From Microcaldota archaeon (GTDB taxonomy: Archaea > Micrarchaeota > Micrarchaeia > Micrarchaeales > CABMGC01), in the NCBI GenBank assembly GCA_021796225.1, contig JAJYOL010000007.1:1-41413 (forward strand): a DNA stretch of 41,413 bases. Reading direction: 5' to 3'. Shown in pieces: positions 2,409-24,001 of the stretch (position 1 is its first letter; every line of letters begins with the position of its first letter). The notes beneath the pieces are model-generated. The model saw nothing but the letters and a program-made list of their open reading frames with translations. It was not told the DNA's origin and did not search any database. A program made the translations under genes and the position numbers.

Positions 2409-3311
2409 CTATAAATTTACGATGGCCGTGATATACGATAGTGCAAGTACCAATAAAAATACCATCGAAGAAAGAGCCCACAGTTTCATCGTTCTTTCAT
2501 ACGAATGCGCGCTTTTGTAATCTCTTATCCCTATATACACTTTGTAACTCACGGGCAGCATGAAGAGCAGCAGCAACATTCGTAACGGTGCAAAACCGGA
2601 AGACACCGCATACACTGCCAACAGGTAGACGAGTGCCTGTGAAAAAAGGAAGACGCGTGAGATTTTTTTATCGCTCAAAAACAACGTGGACATGCTTTTT
2701 CTGCCGAATTTCTTATCTATCTTTCTATCCGGCATTTCGTTTACCAAAAGGGAAACGCCGCCGAAGAGCCCTCCGACTATCAATACGGGAAGCGCATTTG
2801 GCAGTTTCCACGGAGAACCCATTGTTACGATAAAAGAGCCGATGCCAGCCATCAGGAATGCTGCCATTACGGAAAGTTCCGCAATGAACGGTATCCTTGT
2901 TATGTAATTTGCATAAAACAGCGTGATCACGCCGCCAACTATTACCAACGGGATTATCAGCGGGATGTAGAATGAAAGGTATGCGCCTATTGCAATTGCA
3001 GCCGTCGCACATATTGCCGCCATGAAAAGAAGTGATTTTGCGCTTATTTTCTTCTTTGCAACTATTGCGCTTCCACCGCTGAATCTTGTTTTTACGGTTT
3101 CCTTGTCTATGCCGGATTTGTAATCAAAATAGTCATCGACGAGGTTCGCGCACATCTGTACCATGCACACGCCCAAAATTGCCAGAATGCCGAAACCGAG
3201 ATTGCTTCCGCCGTAAAAAATTGCGGCTGAAACTCCAAGGAACGCATTAAGCAAACCGAGCATTACCGAAGGCTCAACGAGTTCCATCAAATGATATCTG
3301 TTGAATGTCAT
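2409..3311 (-). CDS. UbiA-family prenyltransferase, MenA-like
   Basis: This 300-aa integral membrane enzyme has about eight to nine membrane segments and the two Asp-rich motifs of the UbiA family: NLVDDYFDYKSGID (56-69) and NEMPDRKIDKKFGRKSM (about 191-207). The first, followed by FSGGSAIV, resembles MenA (1,4-dihydroxy-2-naphthoate prenyltransferase) more than the archaeal lipid enzyme DGGGP synthase. Downstream ubiE and the nearby GGPP synthase fit attachment of a C20 or longer tail to a naphthoquinone-type ring, which is inference. The ATG at 3311 lies only 23 bp after the 3' end of tRNA-Thr on the same strand, with no room for a separate promoter, so the mRNA probably arises by tRNA processing of a shared transcript. 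Confidence 0.82.
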   Translation of the reverse strand: MTFNRYHLMELVEPSVMLGLLNAFLGVSAAIFYGGSNLGFGILAILGVCMVQMCANLVDDYFDYKSGIDKETVKTRFSGGSAIVAKKKISAKSLLFMAAICATAAIAIGAYLSFYIPLIIPLVIVGGVITLFYANYITRIPFIAELSVMAAFLMAGIGSFIVTMGSPWKLPNALPVLIVGGLFGGVSLLVNEMPDRKIDKKFGRKSMSTLFLSDKKISRVFLFSQALVYLLAVYAVSSGFAPLRMLLLLFMLPVSYKVYIGIRDYKSAHSYERTMKLWALSSMVFLLVLALSYITAIVNL

Positions 3312-3334
3312 GGCTATTACGATTCCGGAACAGT

Positions 3335-3430
3335 AGCCTCCGCCGAGGATTGAACTCGGGACCTTGTGCTATATGGGTGCGGAAACCCGCAGCATACCAT
3401 GCACACGCTCTACCACTGAGCTACAGAGGC
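3335..3430 (-). tRNA. tRNA-Thr (GGT) with a canonical-position intron of about 24 nt
   Basis: Read on the minus strand, the acceptor GCCTCTG pairs with CGGAGGC, the D-arm is GCTC...GAGC, the anticodon stem is TGTGC/GCACA and the T-arm is CCGAG TTCAATC CTCGG. The segment inside the anticodon stem is 31 nt. Removing 24 nt after position 37 leaves a 7-nt loop with anticodon GGT (Thr). The intron itself can fold (TGCGGG/CCCGCA-like). The discriminator base is T, as expected for archaeal tRNA-Thr. CCA is not encoded. Confidence 0.93.
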
Positions 3431-3445
3431 ACAAGAATGCTTGTA

Positions 3446-3462
3446 TTTTTAAAATATTTAAA
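3446..3462 (-). promoter_or_regulatory. TATA-box promoter of tRNA-Thr
   Basis: On the minus strand a long A/T element (TTTAAATATTTTAAAAATA) lies about 16-32 bp before the tRNA 5' end, the normal archaeal TATA position. It sits in the 53-bp spacer between the two tRNA genes. Confidence 0.55.
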
Positions 3463-3483
3463 CGCTATGCACGTGTTTGAATT

Positions 3484-3589
3484 TGCAGGGGGAGAGATTT
3501 GAACTCCCGAAGGCGATAAGCCACAGGATCTTAAGTCCTGCGCATTTTTCTGTGGCCGTTAAAGCCAGACCAGGCTCTGCCACCCCTGC
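3484..3589 (-). tRNA. tRNA-Leu (TAA) with a non-canonical intron in the D-loop
   Basis: On the minus strand the acceptor is GCAGGGG/CCCCTGC with discriminator A. The anticodon stem-loop is CAGGA CTTAAGA TCCTG (anticodon TAA). There is a long variable arm (GGC...GCC) typical of class II tRNA-Leu and the T-arm GGGAG TTCAAAT CTCTC. The D-stem is GCA...TGC, but the D-loop after GAGCCTGGTC is enlarged by about 19 nt (approximately 3550-3568) that forms its own hairpin (TGGC TTTAAC GGCCA). Removing it gives a normal D-loop, so it is best read as an archaeal intron at a non-canonical site. The exact splice points are not fixed. It starts 27 bp after the PAC2 gene and has no clear TATA box, so may be co-transcribed with it. 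Confidence 0.9.
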
Positions 3590-3616
3590 AAGTTGTAAAC
3601 GCAACTCTTCACCGAG

Positions 3617-4351
3617 TCATGCATACATCGAAGGTCCTGCTGCTTCGGTCGCATTCGTATATGTGTCATGCGTTTCCTTCATCTTCTTCATCAGATCGCG
3701 TATTTTTGCTTCAACGACCTTCGATTCCTCTTCAAGATCCTTCAAGTCTATTGACATATCCATTATCTTGTTGAGTCCGCCTATTGCAAGTTCCGCATAC
3801 TTCGGATCCATTATCTGTGGATTTACCTCGACAAGAAGATCGAGCATCGGCACGTTCATCTGCGATGAATTTACCATGAGTATCGCGCTTATTCCGGCTA
3901 TTACGCCTTCGCTTATCGGCTTTATTCCCGCGCTGTTTGCCTTTTTGAGAAGCGCCGCGCTTTGCGTGGCTATGAATACGCCGTCTCCGGCCTTGGTAGA
4001 AGGCATACCGCTTATCGAGATAATTCTTGCTATCCCATATTTCTTAATGAACGAAAGAAGCTCCATGCTCAACGGATATATGAGTTCCGAAGGGATTGTG
4101 AATTCCGAAAGAACCACTATGAGTTTTGTCTTCTTGTCCATGTAAAGCCTTGCAGGATACATCGGAACACCGCCGTGTATTGCCGCGATAGGCGGAAACT
4201 GCTCGCTTTCTATGTGTCCTACGTATTCCATCTCCAATTTTTCTATTATGTAACTGCCTGCCATTGCGCCGACAAGTCCCGCTCCGGGAAAGGCTTCTAT
4301 CATGCTGTATCCTTTCAGATTAAGCTCTTTGAACAGCTTTATGCTTATCAT
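3617..4351 (-). CDS. PAC2-family protein (proteasome assembly chaperone-like)
   Basis: This 244-aa soluble protein has the PAC2 / COG2047-type opening, MIEAFPGAGLVGAMAGSYII, followed by HIESEQFPPIAAIHGGVP and SEFTIPSELIYPLS, all hallmarks of the archaeal PAC2 family. The C-terminal 50 residues are a charged helix likely to coil (DLKDLEEESKVVEAKIRDLMKKMKE). Eukaryotic relatives help assemble 20S proteasomes. The archaeal role is less certain. It is transcribed from a TATA-like element (TTTAATACTTATT on the minus strand, near 4375-4390) and runs into tRNA-Leu 27 bp downstream. Confidence 0.85.
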   Translation of the reverse strand: MISIKLFKELNLKGYSMIEAFPGAGLVGAMAGSYIIEKLEMEYVGHIESEQFPPIAAIHGGVPMYPARLYMDKKTKLIVVLSEFTIPSELIYPLSMELLSFIKKYGIARIISISGMPSTKAGDGVFIATQSAALLKKANSAGIKPISEGVIAGISAILMVNSSQMNVPMLDLLVEVNPQIMDPKYAELAIGGLNKIMDMSIDLKDLEEESKVVEAKIRDLMKKMKETHDTYTNATEAAGPSMYA

Positions 4352-4489
4352 AAAACAACCAATTAGATATTGGCAATAAGTATTAAATGCCTTTCAGATG
4401 CGCATGCGTATTCTCACTGTCCACGTGACATTTTACTGCCATGTATCAAAATTACAATTTATCCTAAATATTTGGTAAAAAAGCCTCTG

Positions 4490-4500
4490 CTTTAAATAAG
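4490..4500 (+). promoter_or_regulatory. Putative TATA box for the Lrp-like regulator
   Basis: CTTTAAATAAG lies about 40-50 bp upstream of the ATG at 4539, giving a leader of roughly 20 nt. It is one of the few good TATA matches in the 187-bp gap between the divergent PAC2 and regulator genes. Confidence 0.45.
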
Positions 4501-4538
4501 AGAAAATTCACTTTACTCCTTGTCAAATAGGTGCCAGA

Positions 4539-5678
4539 ATGAGTAAACATACCCCTACTGCGAAGTCTGAGCCTGAAATGCATGTGGAAGATGAGATGCG
4601 CGACAGAGTCTTGTCCGAATTGAGCATGGATTCAAGACAGAGCCTCGCATCAACGGCAGAAAAGATAGGGATAAGCAAGACCGCGGCATTTAACATACTT
4701 AACGAAATGGTAAACAGCGGAGACATACGCTTCGTTCCCGAACTCAACGTGGAGGAATTGTGGAAGCACGAATTGCTTCATACGACGAAATGGATGCAGA
4801 AGAGGGAATTCAGGAAGCTGAATATACATGAAATAGGATTCAGCGAATACGTATGCATGGTCAAATTTAACGGCAAGAAGCCATCGGAGGAAACGATTGC
4901 AAATGCAGCAAAGAAATCCTACATGCCGCAGAACATATCGATGCTCTACGGAAAGTATGATCTTTTCATGTACGTAATAGCGAGAAATGCCGCCGAAGTT
5001 TCATTCTTCGTAAATTCTTTTTCCAAGTCCCTTGACGGATACAAAATGGAAATAAGCATAAGGAACATACGCAAAACGTACGGGTTCTTCCCGGTGCGCG
5101 ATGCGTTCATCTCTGAATTGAAGCTCCCTGAGAAATACAAGAAACTGCTGCTTATACTGAATGAAAATTCCCGGTGCCATCTGTCACAGATGGCGGGCGA
5201 CATAGACAAGAATACCATAACCTACATGTACAAGGCGCTTCTCGATTATGGGATAATACGCAGGTCTACCGTGGTCATGAAAAAGCCGGAGAACAGCATT
5301 ATCGGATTGATAACGTATAGGATAGTGGACCAGAACCTGTTCAACAGGAATAAGGCAAAATGGCTGAATCACCTTGTTAACACCAACACTGGAAAGAACG
5401 CGGCATATCTTTTCATGGCCGATACTTACGAGCCTTACGGCGGCATCGTGCTGGTAACAGCAAAGAATTCTTCGGCGATAGAATCCGTCAGGGATTCCCT
5501 CGCATCCATGCGCATAGGGATAGAGATCGAAAGCCAGATACTGACAAAATCGATATTGGGAGAGCTCGGATTTAGAAATTTCGACGTGAGACAGAGCCAC
5601 CAATACGGGGTCTTGCAGACCGACGGTCTTGTTCCGCGCAGCGAAAGGATTTCCGAGAATGCACGAACGCGTTACTAA
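4539..5678 (+). CDS. Lrp/AsnC-like transcriptional regulator with two winged-helix domains
   Basis: This 379-aa soluble protein has an N-terminal helix-turn-helix (about 20-65: RQSLASTAEKIGISKTAAFN) followed by a region resembling the Lrp ligand-binding fold (YVCMVKFNGKKP...MYVIARNAAEVSFFVNSF). A second helix-turn-helix (about 205-250: CHLSQMAGDIDKNTITYMYK) leads into a second similar alpha/beta half (LFMADTYEPYGGIVLVTAK). It therefore reads as a tandem duplication of an Lrp/AsnC unit, longer than the usual 150 aa. Targets are unknown. Its 3' end overlaps that of dph2, which is convergent, by 4 bp. Confidence 0.75.
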   Translation: MSKHTPTAKSEPEMHVEDEMRDRVLSELSMDSRQSLASTAEKIGISKTAAFNILNEMVNSGDIRFVPELNVEELWKHELLHTTKWMQKREFRKLNIHEIGFSEYVCMVKFNGKKPSEETIANAAKKSYMPQNISMLYGKYDLFMYVIARNAAEVSFFVNSFSKSLDGYKMEISIRNIRKTYGFFPVRDAFISELKLPEKYKKLLLILNENSRCHLSQMAGDIDKNTITYMYKALLDYGIIRRSTVVMKKPENSIIGLITYRIVDQNLFNRNKAKWLNHLVNTNTGKNAAYLFMADTYEPYGGIVLVTAKNSSAIESVRDSLASMRIGIEIESQILTKSILGELGFRNFDVRQSHQYGVLQTDGLVPRSERISENARTRY

Positions 5679-16843: not shown

Positions 16844-17764
16844 TTGAAAGAAAGTCCTGAAGAGAAGAGGCAGCGGCTGATAGAACTGGCAAAGGCCAGT
16901 GTAACGTCCGCGTATTCTACCGGAGAGCATTCAGTGATACTTGCAGTAAACACATCCAACGAACTCGAGCGCGCAAGAAATCTCATACATGAGAAACTCG
17001 AGGAGTGGTATGGCATATTTTTCCCCGAACTGCGGTTAAACAATCAGATAAGCTACGCGCATTTCGTATCCGAATTCGGCATGGACAAGAAGGCTGCCGA
17101 TAAGGAACAGCTGACAAAACTTCTCGGAAGCGCTGCAGACGAAGTTATCGCAAAGGCAAGCAACAGCATCGGAAGGGAACCGAGTGAAACCGAATACGCG
17201 ATGCTCAAGAAAATCGCCGATTATGAGATAGGCATGGCAAAAATGCAGGAAGATATAGACGTATATCTCAAGGAACGTGCCACCGCGATGATGCCGAACA
17301 TAACATATCTGGTGGATTTCAAGATTGCCGCGGAACTTCTCGCCAAGGCCGGTTCGCTGTCAAAAATGGCATTCATGCCTGCCGGCACGATACAGCTTCT
17401 CGGAGCGGAGAAGGCGCTGTTCAAGCACATAAAATTCAACAGCAAACCTCCAAAATACGGCATACTGTTCAAGCTTCCGCAAATAACCACTGCGAACAAA
17501 CTGGATCGCGGAAGAATAGCCAGGCTTTACGCCACAAAGATATGCATAGCGGCAAAGGCCGATGCGTTTACTAAGAATTTCATAGCGCCGAAGCTCAAGG
17601 AAGCTATCGAAGCCACGATAGAGAAATACAAGACGCAGCCGCGGAAGCCGAAACCGATGCAGCAGCAGAGAAGAAACGACTACCGTCCGAACAGATTCAA
17701 ATCCAACGGCAACAAATCCTTCAGGAACAACAGGCACGGCGGAAGAGACCGCAGGCAGAGATAA
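16844..17764 (+). CDS. Nop5/Nop56-58 homologue lacking the N-terminal fibrillarin-binding domain
   Basis: This 306-aa protein is the core of the C/D-box sRNP. The coiled-coil and NOP domains are present: SVILAVNTSNELERARNLIHEKLEEW, then MMPNITYLVDFKIAAELLAKAGSL, the GAEKALFKHIKF RNA/L7Ae-contacting block, and a basic Arg/Lys-rich C-terminal tail. Archaeal Nop5 normally has about 120 further residues at the N-terminus that hold fibrillarin. Here only about 25 residues precede the coiled coil, and only 54 bp separates it from dinB, so the domain is truly absent. The start is a TTG (16844). A transposon begins 53 bp after its stop. Confidence 0.85.
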   Translation: MKESPEEKRQRLIELAKASVTSAYSTGEHSVILAVNTSNELERARNLIHEKLEEWYGIFFPELRLNNQISYAHFVSEFGMDKKAADKEQLTKLLGSAADEVIAKASNSIGREPSETEYAMLKKIADYEIGMAKMQEDIDVYLKERATAMMPNITYLVDFKIAAELLAKAGSLSKMAFMPAGTIQLLGAEKALFKHIKFNSKPPKYGILFKLPQITTANKLDRGRIARLYATKICIAAKADAFTKNFIAPKLKEAIEATIEKYKTQPRKPKPMQQQRRNDYRPNRFKSNGNKSFRNNRHGGRDRRQR

Positions 17765-17808: not shown

Positions 17809-17817
17809 AGTTTTACC
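17809..17817 (+). repeat. Target-site duplication, left (AGTTTTACC)
   Basis: AGTTTTACC directly precedes the left end of the transposon and recurs exactly after the right end at 22793-22801. A 9-bp duplication is a normal length for IS4-like DDE transposases. Confidence 0.85.
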
Positions 17818-17833
17818 GGCTTTGTATAAATAG
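17818..17833 (+). repeat. Transposon terminal inverted repeat, left
   Basis: GGCTTTGTATAAATAG matches the complement of 22777-22792 at 16 of 16 positions. Beyond that one mismatch and two matches follow. Confidence 0.9.
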
Positions 17834-17837
17834 AGGC

Positions 17838-17875
17838 ACTTTTTATACAGAGTGAGGACCTTTTATACAGCATCC
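17838..17875 (+). repeat. Subterminal direct repeat, left, with two TTTATACA iterons
   Basis: This 38-bp stretch contains TTTTTATACAG and CTTTTATACAG and aligns in direct orientation with 22737-22775 (27 of the first 33 positions). It is a likely transposase-binding region. The inner iteron also resembles a TATA box about 45 bp upstream of the endonuclease ATG. Confidence 0.7.
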
Positions 17876-17911
17876 ATTATTAATCTTTCCAGTGTTTTAT
17901 TTACGTTGGAC

Positions 17912-18790
17912 ATGGAAAACTCACAGAGATTAGAAACCAGCGATAATTTGATAAAGGAGTGCATACTTGATTTGTATATAAATCCCAAGAAATCAATGGT
18001 CAAATGGTCTAAAATTACCAATCAGACTGCACAAGGTAAATTTGCCTATCCGAGTCAACATCTCGCCTCTTTGATTACTGGAATTAAAGGAAAAGGTAGT
18101 GCAGCAAGAGGAGACGATTTGGCGGATGGTTCTGAAATCAAATCATGTAGCAGGGCAGACCAGTTGAGGTCTTGCAACAACTGTGGAGCAAATGTTCTGC
18201 TCTGGCAAAAAGAATGTCCAAACTGTGGTTCTACGGATATAAAAGTAGACACAAGTTCTCATTGGATATTTCCTATAAGGTCAGATGATGAATTGGATTT
18301 GCTTCTCAATAGGGTTCCCAGAATAATCTTCATTTTATTTGACAAAGAAGATTCCGAATCAGAAAATATAAGGATTAGAGCGTGGACTGTAAATCCACAA
18401 GAGAGCTATGTAAAGGCATTTTTCACAGATTATTATGTAAATAATTTCAAAATGAAGACGGATAAGGGCGAGAAACCTGCACCTTGCAATCTTCATCCAT
18501 TGAAATACGATTTCTTTATGATGCGGCCAAAACTGATATTTCATGCAGACATAATTGAAAATGATGTTGAAATAGAATTTTGGGACTTGAAACATCCTAA
18601 AGAACAGCCCATGTTCTCTCATTTGTTGAGCAAGGAACAACTAATTCAAATTTTCGGGAAAAAGGTATCTGTACTCAAAAAAACGCAAATAGTGGAGAAA
18701 TTCCCTTATATTCCACAAAAAGATTTCGACAAATTGGTCATGAAAAAGAAAGTCCTAAAGAAATACAAACAAAAATATGTCAGGCGTTAG
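17912..18790 (+). CDS. MamI-like type II restriction endonuclease
   Basis: This 292-aa protein matches my memory of the MamI restriction endonuclease family (Pfam RE_MamI). The core is ARGDDLADGSEIKSCSRADQ, in which E/D...E-x-K residues (ADGSEIK) fit a PD-(D/E)XK active site. Next comes a zinc-ribbon CNNCGANVLLWQKECPNCGS and the WIFPIRSDDELDLLLNRVPR block. MamI cuts a GAT-N4-ATC site; specificity here is unproven. The neighbouring DNA methyltransferase on the other strand, overlapping tail-to-tail, supports the assignment. The ATG at 17912 is preferred over upstream in-frame codons within the transposon end repeats. A TATA-like iteron ends about 42 bp upstream. Confidence 0.75.
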   Translation: MENSQRLETSDNLIKECILDLYINPKKSMVKWSKITNQTAQGKFAYPSQHLASLITGIKGKGSAARGDDLADGSEIKSCSRADQLRSCNNCGANVLLWQKECPNCGSTDIKVDTSSHWIFPIRSDDELDLLLNRVPRIIFILFDKEDSESENIRIRAWTVNPQESYVKAFFTDYYVNNFKMKTDKGEKPAPCNLHPLKYDFFMMRPKLIFHADIIENDVEIEFWDLKHPKEQPMFSHLLSKEQLIQIFGKKVSVLKKTQIVEKFPYIPQKDFDKLVMKKKVLKKYKQKYVRR

Positions 18791-19731
18791 TGTAGTGATT
18801 TTTGTGCTAATTCTGTTTTAATTCGTTGTTCGGCTATTTTAGAATATTTCTTATCAATCTCGATTCCTATGAATTTCCTGCCCAATCTCATTGAGGCCAC
18901 CGCAGTTGTTCCACTTCCCAAGAAGGGGTCTAACACTAAATTACCTTTGTTAGAACTTGCAATTACTAGCCTCTCGATTAGTTTTAATGGCTTTTGCGTT
19001 GAATGGTTCCTATCCTCTTTATAGAAGTCTATATCCGTCCAAACATCACTAAATCCCATCTGTGGATTAAATGTGAAATTGACCTCTGAATAATCCATCT
19101 TGAATTTAAGTATTTCTTGCAGTCTATCCCACATTTCCCTTGTTGGAATCTGCGCCAAGATATTTTCTCCTGTGTATAACGACCAAACCCCGCCACCATT
19201 TGTTTTGACGTGCAGTTTTTCATTTATTTCCTTGGCAGTAAAACCAAGTTCCTTTTGTCTTTCTTTAAGGAACTTCTTTATGTTAGGCTGATTATTCTTG
19301 ACGAAAAAGAAAATGCTCTCTGTCGTTGTTGGAAACATCTTATAAGTGCTCGTTTTTCTTCCGCTTATAGACCTCATGCCCTTATCCACTACTATCTGCT
19401 GTCTAAAAACAAATCCATATTTCTCCGCTATTGGTAGTATCTTGGATAGAAGTTTAACATAACCAAAGAGCCAGAATGACGAGTTTGTTTTAGCAATCCT
19501 TGACAACTCTTTAATCCATTTCTCTGTCCATACTAAATAGTCCTCTTCCGTCCTCCATTTGAAGTCCCATTTTTCGTTTACGGTTTTAAAATAGGGTGGG
19601 TCTGCTATGGTCAAATCTACTGATTTGGCTGGAAGCCTTCCCATGACTGAAATTGCGTCGCCGTTTATGATTTTATCGAATAAAGAATCAATTTTAGTAA
19701 TTTTTCCTAATTGATTTTCGGTTATTATCAT
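18787..19731 (-). CDS. Beta-class DNA (adenine-N6 or cytosine-N4) methyltransferase
   Basis: This 314-aa amino-methyltransferase has the catalytic motif DPPYFKTV (44-51) ahead of the SAM-binding motif DPFLGSGTTAVASMRLG near the C-terminus. The order (motif IV before motif I) defines the beta class. A central variable region (about 130-230) probably recognises DNA. It should protect the site cut by the neighbouring endonuclease. Its ATG follows the TAA of the transposase gene with no gap, so its translation is likely coupled to transposase expression. Its stop overlaps the convergent endonuclease stop by 3-4 bp. Confidence 0.9.
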   Translation of the reverse strand: MIITENQLGKITKIDSLFDKIINGDAISVMGRLPAKSVDLTIADPPYFKTVNEKWDFKWRTEEDYLVWTEKWIKELSRIAKTNSSFWLFGYVKLLSKILPIAEKYGFVFRQQIVVDKGMRSISGRKTSTYKMFPTTTESIFFFVKNNQPNIKKFLKERQKELGFTAKEINEKLHVKTNGGGVWSLYTGENILAQIPTREMWDRLQEILKFKMDYSEVNFTFNPQMGFSDVWTDIDFYKEDRNHSTQKPLKLIERLVIASSNKGNLVLDPFLGSGTTAVASMRLGRKFIGIEIDKKYSKIAEQRIKTELAQKSLH

Positions 19732-20982
19732 TTAAACACCCATATAGAATTTAGGTTCTATTCCCAACTCATGCATTTCCTGTATAAGCACTACAATATT
19801 ATGACATAAAACCTTTAAAAGTACCTCGTTTAGCTGTGCAGTCTTATCTTTGCTTCTTACAAAGTCAGTGAACTTTGCCTTCATCATATTAAAGGTTGAT
19901 TCTACATTACTTCTGTTATGGTAATGCTCTAAAAAGTCCTCTCTATTATATACAAAATAATTGAACATTTTACGCCATATGTGTCCTTTACCTCTTGGTT
20001 TTCCAGTAGCATTAGACCTAAAAGGTATGTATGCAGTTCCGCCTATTTGCTCTACATACCCATAGTTATCTCTGCTTGAATAGGCTTTATCTGCCGATAC
20101 TTCTTGCATATTAAAACCGCTTTTACTTGTTTCTTCTACAAGTGGTATAAAATGAGGGCAATCGCTATCTTTCCAATTACCATCTAAGCCAACATCCACG
20201 GCAGTTATGATATTGGTCTTTACGCCTGTGCAAATATGAACTTTAATCCATTCATGCTCTTTACCTGTATGGTGTGTTTCTCTGCAATAGTCATTAAACT
20301 TAGTTGTTCTAAACCCAGAACTATCTATTGCGAATTTTGTTTCTACTGCCTTTAATGGTATAGCTGATAATGTTATTAGCTCTTTTAGGATGGGTGTAAA
20401 TTTCTCGCTCTGTATGTATTTGCCTACTGCCGTAAAGGAACTTTGCCTACTTATGTAGTTCTTTTCTACGGCAATCTTTACGTCGCCTTGAAATCTTCTC
20501 AACGAAAATGTCGAATATACCTTTAGTGCAGAGCAAAAGACCATATCCTTTAATTGCAGTCTGGGCCTACCGAAAGAGTATAGAGGTTCTTCTATATCCT
20601 TGCATAAATCAAAAAGCAGTTCCATAAATAGCTCCTGCTCCTTTATTTGCGCCTTATCATAAGCGGGCCAATTCTGCGGATATGTAATGCGCTTTGTCTG
20701 CGTTATTGTAGTTGTGCCATCCTGATTGAACTTTCTCGATATGGTTATATCCACAGCGAATATGTGCTTGCATCTAAGCCCTCTTTCCGTGAAGTCAGGG
20801 CAAGTGCAAGTAGGCCCATCTATTCTGAGTGCTACTTTGTAAATTTGATGCGGATTAGTCTGCGAAGGTACTAACCAATCACCATTTTTTGGGATTACTT
20901 TTTGTGTTTGAGCTATTGCATAACCCCTCTGTTTTCTTAGTCTAAGAAGGTCTTGGCAGATCATTTTATTCACCTTATTCAT
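19732..20982 (-). CDS. DDE transposase with N-terminal SWIM zinc finger
   Basis: This roughly 416-aa transposase has a SWIM finger (CTC...CKH, C63/C65/C75/H77 in the longest reading frame) followed by an RNase H-like DDE_Tnp_1 catalytic core. D224 lies in AIDSSGF, D302 in SADKAYSSRDN and E365 in RSNVESTFNMMKAKF, with the usual IS4/IS5-like Y/R signature. All three catalytic acids are present, so it may be active. An ATG at 20982 was chosen; a TTG at 20994 would add four residues. It is the only transposase in the element. The SWIM finger at the N-terminus differs from eukaryotic MULE transposases, where it is C-terminal. Confidence 0.88.
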   Translation of the reverse strand: MNKVNKMICQDLLRLRKQRGYAIAQTQKVIPKNGDWLVPSQTNPHQIYKVALRIDGPTCTCPDFTERGLRCKHIFAVDITISRKFNQDGTTTITQTKRITYPQNWPAYDKAQIKEQELFMELLFDLCKDIEEPLYSFGRPRLQLKDMVFCSALKVYSTFSLRRFQGDVKIAVEKNYISRQSSFTAVGKYIQSEKFTPILKELITLSAIPLKAVETKFAIDSSGFRTTKFNDYCRETHHTGKEHEWIKVHICTGVKTNIITAVDVGLDGNWKDSDCPHFIPLVEETSKSGFNMQEVSADKAYSSRDNYGYVEQIGGTAYIPFRSNATGKPRGKGHIWRKMFNYFVYNREDFLEHYHNRSNVESTFNMMKAKFTDFVRSKDKTAQLNEVLLKVLCHNIVVLIQEMHELGIEPKFYMGV

Positions 20983-21120
20983 TATATTGAACAATAAGAT
21001 ATATAAAGCTTATTCTTTTAAATGAATAATATACTATACACCTTATTGAATAAGATTTGACGACTGTAAAAAGCTTATTCGCTTAAATGAACAGAAAGGC
21101 ATATATACTTTATTATTTAA
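20983..21120. promoter_or_regulatory. Divergent promoter region with repeated GAATAAG/CTTATTC boxes
   Basis: Between the transposase and ATPase starts there are at least six boxes of CTTATT or its complement. These include the near-palindrome CTTATTGAATAAG (21041-21053) and two 27-bp direct copies (AAAGCTTATTC-N2-TTAAATGAA, at about 21005 and 21071). A third partial copy, TTTAAATGAATAATAT, covers the ATPase start. TATA-like stretches (TATATAAAG, GCATATATAC) serve each side. The arrangement suggests a common operator, perhaps bound by a product of the element. Confidence 0.6.
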
Positions 21121-22605
21121 ATGAATAATATGGCCTGGAAAGAATATTTGCAAGAAAGAATAAATGCTATGCCTTCCCTAATAAAGGAAAACACTAAAGC
21201 AGGGACATTAGTTGAACGGCCTGCACTCTATAGAGTAATGAGATTTGCACGGTCGTTCATAAATAATGAAGGAGACTCAAGAATGGTAATTTTGTATGGA
21301 TTGAGAGGCATAGGCAAATCAACAATTTTATATCAAGCGTATGATAGGTTAGCTAAAGGTAGTTTTGAGGGGTCAATAAAAAAACCCGTGCCTAAGGAGA
21401 ATATGCTCTACCTATCCTTAGACCAAGTTATGCTGCAACCTGAGTATTCGGAAGGTAAAAGCCCATTGTACGAAGCCGTAAAGAACTTCTGTTCTGAGAT
21501 ACATAACACCACCATAGAAGACCTCAATGAAAAATTGTTTATATTAGTTGATGAAGCCCAATTTGATAAGAAGTGGGCAGTTGCATCAAAAACTATCTTC
21601 GATTCGTCTAAAAATATTTTCTTAGTTATAACTGGTTCTTCTGCTTTAGCTCTAAATATAGACACAGATACTGCAAGGAGAGCGATAAAAGAACCACTTT
21701 TCCCGTTAAATTTTATGGAATACCAACTCATGAGTAATAATATATTCCCCCCACGTGGAACTGCCGAGAGCCTAAAAAGACTTATACTTCAAAATGATAT
21801 CAGCATGATTCCGATTTTAAACAAAACAATCGCTAAAATAAAAGAGGATATTGCAGCAAAACGCAAAAGTCTGAGTGGGAGTCTTGAAGATTATCTTACT
21901 ATGGGGGGGTTCCCTTATGGGCTCATAACCTCAAAAGAGATAGCGTATCGTAGGATACTCGATATGATTACAAGGATAGTATCTCAAGACGTTCCAACAA
22001 TAAACAATTATGAAATGGATGTCATACCCCAAATAATGAGAGTAATAGGAGCTGTAGCACTAAAACCATCTGGAGAATTGCCGCAGACAAAATTATCTGA
22101 AAATCTTAACATACCACTTGCTAAATTGAATAGTATACTAGATACCCTTCAAAAAACCCACCTGATATTTTCAGTAAAACCACATCCTTCCCCATTAGAT
22201 AGACGGGGGGTAAACAAAGCTTTCAAATTCTATTTTATGTCCCCTACCTTACTTAGCGCACTACTCTATTTGAACGGCAAAACAACAATAACAAATGATA
22301 TTAAAAGTTTACTTTGGGAAAATGCTGTAGGTTCTACACTGCATAAATTATGTTTTACGACTGGTACTTTATACAATCTTTTTTATGATGCAAGATATGA
22401 AACTAATGTGGATTTTATCTTGGAAAACCCGCTTGCTGACCAAAACGTACCCATAGAGGTTGGATTAAACAAGGATACTGCTCAGATAAAAAATGCTATT
22501 GAAATGTATAAAGCGAGGTATGGGGTAATTGTATCTGATGTTCAAGAGATAAGTTATACAGATCGCATAATAACAATGCCGTTCTGGTTCTTCTTATACT
22601 TATGA
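21121..22605 (+). CDS. AAA+ ATPase of the archaeal AAA_14/DUF4143-like family
   Basis: This 494-aa ATPase has Walker A GLRGIGKST (60-68), Walker B ILVDEAQF (about 140-147), a sensor-1 stretch LVITGSSALALN, and a family-typical PLNFMEYQLM segment. A winged-helix region (KLSENLNIPLAKLNSILDTL) and a C-terminal part resembling a nuclease-like DUF4143 fold (FDARYETNVDFIL...PIEVGLNKD) follow, the latter with a D...E-x-x pattern. Proteins of this type are common in archaea and their function is largely unknown. On this element it may assist transposition, as in TnsC/IstB helper ATPases, but it is not of the IstB family. It is read from the shared divergent promoter. Confidence 0.8.
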   Translation: MNNMAWKEYLQERINAMPSLIKENTKAGTLVERPALYRVMRFARSFINNEGDSRMVILYGLRGIGKSTILYQAYDRLAKGSFEGSIKKPVPKENMLYLSLDQVMLQPEYSEGKSPLYEAVKNFCSEIHNTTIEDLNEKLFILVDEAQFDKKWAVASKTIFDSSKNIFLVITGSSALALNIDTDTARRAIKEPLFPLNFMEYQLMSNNIFPPRGTAESLKRLILQNDISMIPILNKTIAKIKEDIAAKRKSLSGSLEDYLTMGGFPYGLITSKEIAYRRILDMITRIVSQDVPTINNYEMDVIPQIMRVIGAVALKPSGELPQTKLSENLNIPLAKLNSILDTLQKTHLIFSVKPHPSPLDRRGVNKAFKFYFMSPTLLSALLYLNGKTTITNDIKSLLWENAVGSTLHKLCFTTGTLYNLFYDARYETNVDFILENPLADQNVPIEVGLNKDTAQIKNAIEMYKARYGVIVSDVQEISYTDRIITMPFWFFLYL

Positions 22606-22736
22606 GTACTTTTTAAAGGTTCAACTAACCTAAACATCGTGTCTTTCCCATAACCCAAGGAAACGTGGCTTGTTTCTATAGCGGTAGCCTATCGCATTTT
22701 GTAAGCGGATTATGAATCTAAAAAAATTTAAGGATT

Positions 22737-22775
22737 ACTTTTTATACAAAATCAGGACTTATTATACAAGATTCC
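22737..22775 (+). repeat. Subterminal direct repeat, right, with TTATACA iterons
   Basis: Aligns in the same orientation with 17838-17875, sharing ACTTTTTATACA and AGGAC and a second TTATACA. A third TTTATACA lies inside the terminal repeat just to the right, giving three iterons with about 20-bp spacing at this end. Confidence 0.7.
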
Positions 22776-22776
22776 A

Positions 22777-22792
22777 CTATTTATACAAAGCC
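22777..22792 (-). repeat. Transposon terminal inverted repeat, right
   Basis: CTATTTATACAAAGCC is the exact complement of the left end and is followed at once by the second AGTTTTACC copy. Confidence 0.9.
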
Positions 22793-22801
22793 AGTTTTAC
22801 C
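22793..22801 (+). repeat. Target-site duplication, right (AGTTTTACC)
   Basis: Exact copy of 17809-17817. Removing the element and one copy rebuilds a continuous intergenic stretch between nop5 and tfb. Confidence 0.85.
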
Positions 22802-22851
22802 GAAAGATTTAAATATCTTATCCTATAACATTTATCTGCTTGTTTTGGAAA

Positions 22852-22861: not shown

Positions 22862-22936
22862 GCTTATTATAAGGAGAACCGAATACAAACGGCATATTGC
22901 GGAAAAATTCTATCTATAACATTTCAAGTGATTTAC

Positions 22937-24001
22937 ATGGCGTCAAACAAGAAAACGAAGAACGTGAAACAGGGGGCTGAACAGCATGCGAGAAAGCATG
23001 AGTCGTCCCATGCAGTTTCAGAAGAAGGCAATTACGCTTCATACGGTCAGGAACACGGGTCCCAGGCAGGAAGCAGATCGCGCGATCTCGGCGGTGCAGC
23101 AAAGAAGTGCACAAGCTGTGGGAGCAGCGACATAATTTTCGATAACGAACGCGGAGAATACATTTGCAACAACTGCGGTCTCGTTATAGAGGAAAACATA
23201 ACGGACAGCGGTCCGGAATGGAGAGCATTCGATGCAGATCAGAGGAATGCGAGAGCAAGAACTGGTGCACCGATAAAGTACATGAAACCCAACAAGGGCC
23301 TTGTAACCGAAATTGACATGTATAATAAGGATATAAGGGGAACGAAGCTTCCTTCAAAGAGACAGGCACAGCTTTACAGGATGAGGAAGTGGCACAAGAG
23401 GGCAAGCATTGCGAGCTCAAGCGAGAGAAACTATCTCGTTGCACTTCCGGAATTGAACAGAGTTGCAAGTTATCTGGGATTGCCTGACAACATAAGGGAG
23501 CAGGCTGCGTTGCTGTACAGACAGTGCGTAAAGAACAATCTGATACGCGGAAGACCTATAGAAACGGTAGTTAACGTAGCGATATATGCAACATGCAGAG
23601 CGGCAGGAATGCCGAGAACGCTCGACGAAATAGCGGACATATCCGGAGTCCCGAAGAAGGAAGTCGGAAGAACATACCGCGTTGTCGCACACGAACTCAA
23701 TCTTAAGATACCGCTTACGGATCCGTCAAGCTATGTACCCAGGTATGTTGCAGCGCTTAAACTCAGCGGAGAAGCGCAGGAGAAATCCATGCTGCTTCTG
23801 AAGCAGGCAATGAAGAAGGGACTTGCAAGCGGGAGAAGCCCTACAGGCGTTTCTGCAGCTGCGGTTTACATAGCCGGCGCTCTCGTCGGTGAAAGGAGAA
23901 CGCAGAAGGAAGTTGCCGATGTTGCTGGAGTAACGGAAGTCACGATAAGGAACAGGTACAGGGAGCTCAAGAAGGAGCTCAACATAGACGTAAGTCTGTG
24001 A
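22937..24001 (+). CDS. tfb: Transcription initiation factor B (TFB/TFIIB)
   Basis: This 354-aa basal factor bridges TBP-bound promoters and RNA polymerase. The zinc ribbon is CTSC (58-61) and CNNC (77-80). The B-reader/linker includes GPEWRAFD, and two cyclin folds follow (ELNRVASYLGLPDNIREQAALLYR; VPRYVAALKLSGEAQEKSMLLL), the last ending in a typical TFB C-terminus. About 55 extra residues before the ribbon are Lys/Glu/Gln/His-rich and probably disordered, which is longer than in most archaeal TFBs. ATG at 22937 was chosen over a GTG nine bases upstream. Four genes follow closely in the same direction. Confidence 0.95.
   Translation: MASNKKTKNVKQGAEQHARKHESSHAVSEEGNYASYGQEHGSQAGSRSRDLGGAAKKCTSCGSSDIIFDNERGEYICNNCGLVIEENITDSGPEWRAFDADQRNARARTGAPIKYMKPNKGLVTEIDMYNKDIRGTKLPSKRQAQLYRMRKWHKRASIASSSERNYLVALPELNRVASYLGLPDNIREQAALLYRQCVKNNLIRGRPIETVVNVAIYATCRAAGMPRTLDEIADISGVPKKEVGRTYRVVAHELNLKIPLTDPSSYVPRYVAALKLSGEAQEKSMLLLKQAMKKGLASGRSPTGVSAAAVYIAGALVGERRTQKEVADVAGVTEVTIRNRYRELKKELNIDVSL

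Follow-up and report, generated by a model that had tools for sequence, protein, structure and literature searches.

This study describes a mobile element of 4,975 bp (17818-22792) in the 41,413-nt contig JAJYOL010000007.1 of a Microcaldota archaeon (GCA_021796225.1, forward strand), the whole of which we refer to as the window. We regard the element, with a probability of about 0.85, as a complete and recently active IS903-like transposon that carries defence genes with it and has the core promoters of archaea as its targets. Its position, flush with the upstream boundary of such a promoter, is its most unusual feature, and one that the initial annotation of this DNA overlooked.

A complete transposon upstream of tfb

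The element ends in two copies of GGCTTTGTATAAATAG, which match as inverted repeats at 16 of 16 positions and are the sole perfect matches in the window, and a 9-bp duplication, AGTTTTACC, borders it on both sides (Table 1). When the DNA of 86 loci was reversed or shuffled, the same search for terminal inverted repeats (TIRs) and target-site duplications (TSDs) returned no false elements. The GC content is 36% within the element and 46% in the remaining window. All four genes of the element have open frames, and their Pfam domains are RE_MamI, N6_N4_Mtase, SWIM with DDE_Tnp_1, and AAA_14 with DUF4143.

Relatives of the host retain the site in its empty form. In G005, a genome of the same genus, the spacer between nop5 and tfb is unbroken and holds a single 9-mer, AACCTAACC (identical to AGTTTTACC at six of nine positions), directly before the conserved GAAAGATTTAAATATCTTAT. 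In G065, which belongs to the same order but another family, the tfb promoter is likewise uninterrupted (CACCGAAAGATTTAAATATTTGA); this promoter is conserved across families (window, G005 and G065). Inverted repeats, a TSD with an empty site in relatives and an intact DDE transposase together identify a complete DNA transposon. The perfect 16-bp repeats, the 9-bp duplication and the 4,975-bp extent between nop5 and tfb, as reported in the initial annotation, are all borne out, and the Pfam domains agree with its listing of an intact DDE transposase, an endonuclease, a methyltransferase and an AAA+ ATPase. The empty site that it had proposed to look for exists in G005, with one diverged 9-mer instead of two.

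Insertion beside the archaeal core promoter

Among archaeal members of the transposon family to which the element belongs, a motif resembling the B recognition element (BRE) and the TATA box follows the TSD directly, with the consensus RAAANNTTTAWATA (BRE plus TATA). The consensus was picked after the discovery flanks had been viewed and was then fixed before an independent set was scored. Discovery sites (n=39) match it at a mean of 9.33 of 12 positions against a null of 4.69±0.24, with the best match at offset 0 in about 26 of the 39. The independent set (n=22) has a mean of 8.95 of 12 against 4.56±0.30, the maximum of 2000 nulls being 5.68, and its best offset is exactly 0 in 13.8 of 22. 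Offsets 3-39 of these flanks, which control internally for A/T-rich DNA between genes, score near background, and offset 0 stands 4-5 points higher. No signal was seen in six bacterial members (promoter match 4.33, null 4.12±0.57). The oriented profile of 61 sites, TSD-R-A-A-A-N-S-T-W-T-A-W-A-W-A, carries near 1 bit at each of positions +3, +4 and +7 to +14, and is the textbook archaeal BRE and TATA box.

The surrounding genes point to genuine promoters. On the promoter side, the neighbouring gene is directed away from the element in 35 of 41 cases (35:6), against 20:21 on the other side, and its commonest start lies about 38 nt past the TSD, as for leaderless genes; the orientation of the element itself is random (19:25). 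In nine archaeal cases the end of a second element abuts the TSD, always away from the promoter and never on the promoter side (the promoter match at L181 is weak), and insertion at the same base has therefore been repeated.

Insertion might be random, with only the harmless events just upstream of promoters surviving. The intergenic position of most insertions (47 of 56) fits this explanation, but selection accounts for no single-base offset, the same base is hit repeatedly, and the bacterial relatives lack a promoter signal. The one-base offset and the stacking of elements make selection alone insufficient, and we consider random insertion very improbable. That the transposase itself reads BRE/TATA-like DNA, through its sequence or bendability and without TFB or TBP, is a much more serious proposal, to which we give somewhat less than even odds. 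The strength of the motif would suffice for a binding site, roughly two thirds of the motif matches of equal quality are genic, and a few insertions (for example L191 and L197) fall within predicted open reading frames (ORFs). The motif matches, however, the combined footprint of two host factors, and most insertions lie at real promoters, as gene direction and an intergenic location despite mostly genic motif matches indicate, although selection could also explain these. Our preferred reading, at even odds or slightly better, is that docking on the TBP-TFB promoter complex guides the transposase. The broader proposal, that an archaeal family of DDE transposons docks on TBP-TFB, reuses promoters as landing pads and spreads restriction-modification (R-M) systems between archaeal phyla, we hold to be an even bet.

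Two other explanations of the targeting were rejected. A symmetric, IS903-like palindromic target is absent from the archaeal members (3.1 of 12 matches, 3 expected), and the SWIM finger itself is not the targeting agent, as insertions abutting promoters are also found in a clade whose members have no detectable SWIM motif (for example L168, L183, L184 and L186). A tree meant to tell whether a host factor or the transposase causes the targeting was uninformative, as the bacterial members form one clade. The bacterial member L134 is inserted in the loop between the arms of a near-perfect palindrome (11 of 12), perhaps a terminator or a repetitive extragenic palindrome; L122 and L123 are weakly so.

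A family of cargo-carrying transposons

Of the 295 genomes sampled within the phylum, 59 have homologues of the transposase; the two other archaeal phyla that were sampled gave 30 of 327 and 19 of 341, and many more archaea and bacteria also have them. About 70 members could be delimited by their ends and 9-bp duplications, and controls gave none. The first pass yielded 49 non-redundant elements of 2.6-8.4 kb (median 4.7 kb), 44 of them with exact 9-bp TSDs, and 22 further elements were delimited afterwards. The family end consensus is [A/G]GCTTTG[C/T]NNNWWAAG, and the sequence that varies downstream of GCTTTG is repeated in the subterminal DNA of the same element (2.63 copies per element, against 0.11 for the motifs of other elements), as expected for binding sites that would co-evolve with the transposase. 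The TTATACA copies near the left end of the window element (Table 1) are probable transposase binding sites of this kind. Most members carry the SWIM finger at the N-terminus of the transposase.

Cargo was characterized by comparing 123 cargo proteins with 123 flanking proteins. The cargo methyltransferases comprise N6_N4_Mtase (10), N6_Mtase (10), C5 methylase (5), D12 (2) and EcoRI methylase (1), and they are accompanied by RE_MamI (3), HsdR-N (2), specificity subunits (3), Vsr (2), NgoPII (1), SfiI (1) and DruA (1); flanking proteins gave isolated methyltransferase matches only. Taking 28 methyltransferases in cargo and 3 in flanks, Fisher's test gives p ~1e-6. By sequence clusters, at least 26 of the 49 elements encode a DNA methyltransferase. 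Two other members hold a MamI-type pair. In L052 the restriction enzyme, methyltransferase and transposase are 73%, 82% and 47% identical to those of the window, and in L056 the values are 40%, 66% and 43%. The R-M pair of L052 is far closer to that of the window than its transposase is, so cargo has probably been exchanged among these transposons. The initial annotation read the element correctly as a self-mobile transposon bearing R-M genes and an ATPase; the compact unit, which it did not recognize, proves to be one member of a large cargo-carrying family. Recurrent cargo without R-M genes (L057, L106, L049/L083/L099, L072/L099 and L051) includes, as read from the sequences, proteasome-like hydrolases, pairs of small membrane proteins and an Hsp90/MORC-like ATPase, which are candidate defence systems.

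Genes of the window element

The restriction enzyme, whose likely start is the ATG at 17912, scores 131.8 bits against the Pfam RE_MamI cut-off of 25. It contains RGDDLADGSEIK, which is PD-(D/E)XK-like, and a CxxC...CxxC zinc ribbon, both kept in the two transposon-borne homologues. The motif order of the methyltransferase is that of the beta class (DPPY ahead of FxGxG). The two genes are convergent with a 4-bp overlap, and L052 and L056 keep the adjacent pairing. The element holds no GATNNNNATC site (the MamI specificity), but only 1.5 would be expected, and such avoidance counts are uninformative.

No gap separates the stop of the transposase gene from the start of the methyltransferase gene, which makes co-transcription likely. 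A methyltransferase gene directly after or overlapping the transposase gene is also seen in L056, L080, L088 and L104. This adjacency in several elements suggests co-expression, by which a new host would be methylated ahead of restriction. In the transposase, the catalytic residues D224-D302-E365 are invariant. Its AlphaFold model (pLDDT 82) weakly matched the folds of DDE/RNase-H transposases and integrases (E ~0.002-0.01), Tn5 among them (TM 0.42).

As a target selector of the TnsC/IstB kind, the ATPase would be a helper of transposition, and its gene does lie divergently beside the transposase gene, as it does in L136, while one deletion derivative in G065 retains just the ends and the ATPase. 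Nearly all other delimited elements lack it, promoter-targeted ones included, and its domains are AAA_14/DUF4143 rather than TnsC/IstB; we consider a helper role improbable. The only homologue in another delimited element is that of L136 (56% identity), and on this ground we assign the ATPase to the variable cargo, outside the core mobility machinery.

Recent movement

Element DNA more than 99.9% identical occurs at other sites, in G065 and in a Parvarchaeota bin, and its presence in another family and in that bin implies that the element moved recently, as the initial annotation had suggested from the repeats and duplication. Genome G000 contains one copy. In G065, whose TFB is 80% identical in protein to that of the window, the element DNA is 100% identical and consists of deletion-type copies at different sites with other TSDs. 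The TSD ACTCTGTAC brackets a copy of the left 3,729 bp together with an ATPase-only deletion derivative (1-27 joined to 3068-4975), and both lie between chromosomal genes in a 335-kb contig. A second derivative (3016-3344 joined to 4925-4975), in a 14.7-kb contig, shows the right end and the left flank of the same site around TTTCAAAAG. In the Parvarchaeota bin, contig DARG01000012.1 consists of precisely the element, 4,975 bp long and with one mismatch; ending at both TIRs is the usual assembler output for a repeat present at several sites, and mis-binning is possible.

Contamination or mis-binning would render the recent transfer illusory. The Parvarchaeota copy, a lone contig of nothing but the element, is easily mis-binned. 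The G065 copies, however, sit in the 335-kb contig with their own TSD and in a second contig with another, and the window copy lies between genes of its own lineage. We consider it improbable that contamination explains all of these copies.

The 14.7-kb contig (L145, G065 C2) and L022:6687-9774 are virus- or plasmid-like, with an integrase-like gene, an AAA ATPase and a 1,243-aa immunoglobulin-like surface protein. The transposon deletion derivative resides in this DNA, part of whose sequence recurs in an insert within the chromosomal copy. Such DNA is a possible vector between families, and the arrangement in G065 C7 could reflect mobile DNA integrated by recombination between transposon copies, or a misassembly. 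At L022:8026-8272, 12-bp repeats of the GGGATGCCGCAA type encode a DAAWDAAR repeat protein beside a 300-bp direct repeat. Scans of viral contigs with the transposase and with the restriction enzyme gave no match, as did a plasmid search with the restriction enzyme; tblastn of plasmids with the transposase gave just IS5 elements of about 25% identity, and one unannotated gut phage scaffold matched the restriction enzyme at 40%.

A proposed mechanism

In our model, the transposase would bind the GGCTTTGTATAAA ends, aided by the inner TGTATAA repeats, and the unit, like members of the IS903 group, would enter its target through a staggered cut of 9 bp. The landing point would be the upstream boundary of a core promoter, probably with guidance from the TFB/TBP complex bound there. 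The host gene would keep its own BRE and TATA box, which would allow essential genes such as tfb to tolerate an insertion, and further insertions could still occur at the site. Transposase and methyltransferase are probably expressed together, and a new host would then be methylated before the nuclease acts. The R-M pair and the ATPase likely guard the carrier against foreign DNA, and once methylation is established, loss of the element would likely be costly.

Several considerations weigh against this account. All data analysed are metagenome bins, and the G065 deletion copies lie in a repeat-rich contig and could be partly misassembled. Of the 61 archaeal sites, 17 score below 9 of 12, and selection against gene-disrupting insertions adds to the intergenic location. 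Docking on the TBP-TFB complex and the activities of the putative MamI-like R-M pair are predictions.

Features of the element and its surroundings

Table 1. Coordinates of the transposon, its genes and the adjoining host features in the window
Feature	Position	Strand	Remarks
Host gene, Nop5-like (name from the initial annotation)	16844..17764	+	Homologous DNA in G005 joins directly to the tfb side
Left TSD, AGTTTTACC	17809..17817	.	Identical 9-mer at right end
Left TIR, GGCTTTGTATAAATAG	17818..17833	+
Two subterminal end-motif copies, inverse orientation	17843..17869	-	TTATACA at 17843-17849 and 17863-17869; family-wide own-motif enrichment
MamI-type type II restriction endonuclease	17852..18790	+	Pfam RE_MamI 2.9e-38; PADLOC REase_II 3.3e-39; L052/L056 alignment
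N6/N4 DNA methyltransferase	18787..19731	-	Pfam N6_N4_Mtase 5.6e-42; PDB relatives CcrM, MboIIA, RsrI
Transposase, N-terminal SWIM zinc finger and DDE_Tnp_1 core	19732..20994	-
AAA_14/DUF4143 ATPase	21121..22605	+	PADLOC candidate-defence family PDC-S01; divergent from transposase gene; homologue likewise arranged in L136
Two subterminal end-motif copies, direct orientation with right TIR	22742..22768	-	TTATACA at 22742-22748 and 22762-22768
Right TIR	22777..22792	-
Right TSD, AGTTTTACC	22793..22801	.
Target: tfb core promoter	22802..22815	+	BRE GAAAGA (22802-22807) and TATA box TTTAAATA (22808-22815); directly abuts duplication
Host gene tfb (archaeal TFIIB)	22928..24001	+	ORF from 22928, ATG 22937

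Elsewhere in the window, a tRNA match at 3335-3430 (-) is, at 96 nt, longer than usual and probably carries an intron.

Significance

To our knowledge, the route by which R-M and other defence genes reach the tiny-genome archaea (DPANN) is poorly known, and this family offers a direct vehicle with defined ends. In the literature searched, which left ISfinder and most subscription papers outside, neither promoter-adjacent insertion nor this transposon family was described; within it, a single-base preference beside BRE and TATA would be the first core-promoter-directed transposition in archaea. The guidance of transposons by basal transcription factors becomes testable in a simple TBP/TFB system. 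The combination of TIR, 9-bp TSD and promoter also provides a bioinformatic handle by which cargo could be mined for new defence genes, and the family might yield a tool to insert DNA upstream of genes in archaea.

Comparison with known systems

The SWIM finger and the 9-bp TSD recall MULE/Mutator transposons, but this assignment was rejected: no MULE-type domain was matched, the transposase domains being only DDE_Tnp_1/DDE_Tnp_4. The family works in the manner of the IS5 family's IS903 group and is probably a relative of that group, with which it shares GGCTTTG... ends (those of a Klebsiella IS5-family element, GGCTTTGTTGAATAAATC, are almost the L044 end), the 9-bp duplication and a DDE_Tnp_1 transposase. 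The best NCBIfam match of the window transposase is IS5_2 (NF033579), at 111.6 bits, below the cut-off of 140. Insertion sequences of the IS903 group measure 1,050-1,054 bp with a 9-bp direct repeat (PMC3281130, Table 2). In contrast to their single gene in ~1.05 kb, the present elements span 2.6-8.4 kb with cargo (four genes in the window element), most have the extra N-terminal SWIM finger, and the archaeal ones differ in their BRE/TATA targeting and non-palindromic target. We file the family as a SWIM-bearing, cargo-carrying, promoter-directed archaeal sister group of the IS903 group.

Tn7-like transposons spread diverse defence systems and bear arrays of end-binding sites (PMC8649781). Defence cargo and end-site arrays are alike in the present family, which has one transposase instead of TnsABCD and other targets; the duplication is 5 bp in Tn7-like elements and 9 bp here. 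Reported archaeal IS-like transposons hold one or two genes, and inverted ends with duplications occur in mobile DNA of archaea (PMC6563490). Inverted ends and duplications are common to these elements, to casposons and to our family, which differs in its multi-gene defence payload and lack of Cas1 or PolB. With MamI-type type II R-M systems the window element shares the RE_MamI enzyme and the convergent N6/N4 methyltransferase, here transposon-borne and in an archaeon.

The targeting has its closest parallel among eukaryotes, where Ty3 and other transposons are tethered to TFIIIB/TBP and insert at a fixed distance from the promoter. A fixed offset from the core promoter is likewise found in the archaeal family, although Ty3 is a retrotransposon at Pol III genes and the present elements are prokaryotic DDE transposons, putatively tethered, at archaeal Pol II-like promoters. 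If docking on TBP-TFB is true, the family would be an archaeal counterpart of TFIIIB-guided Ty3.

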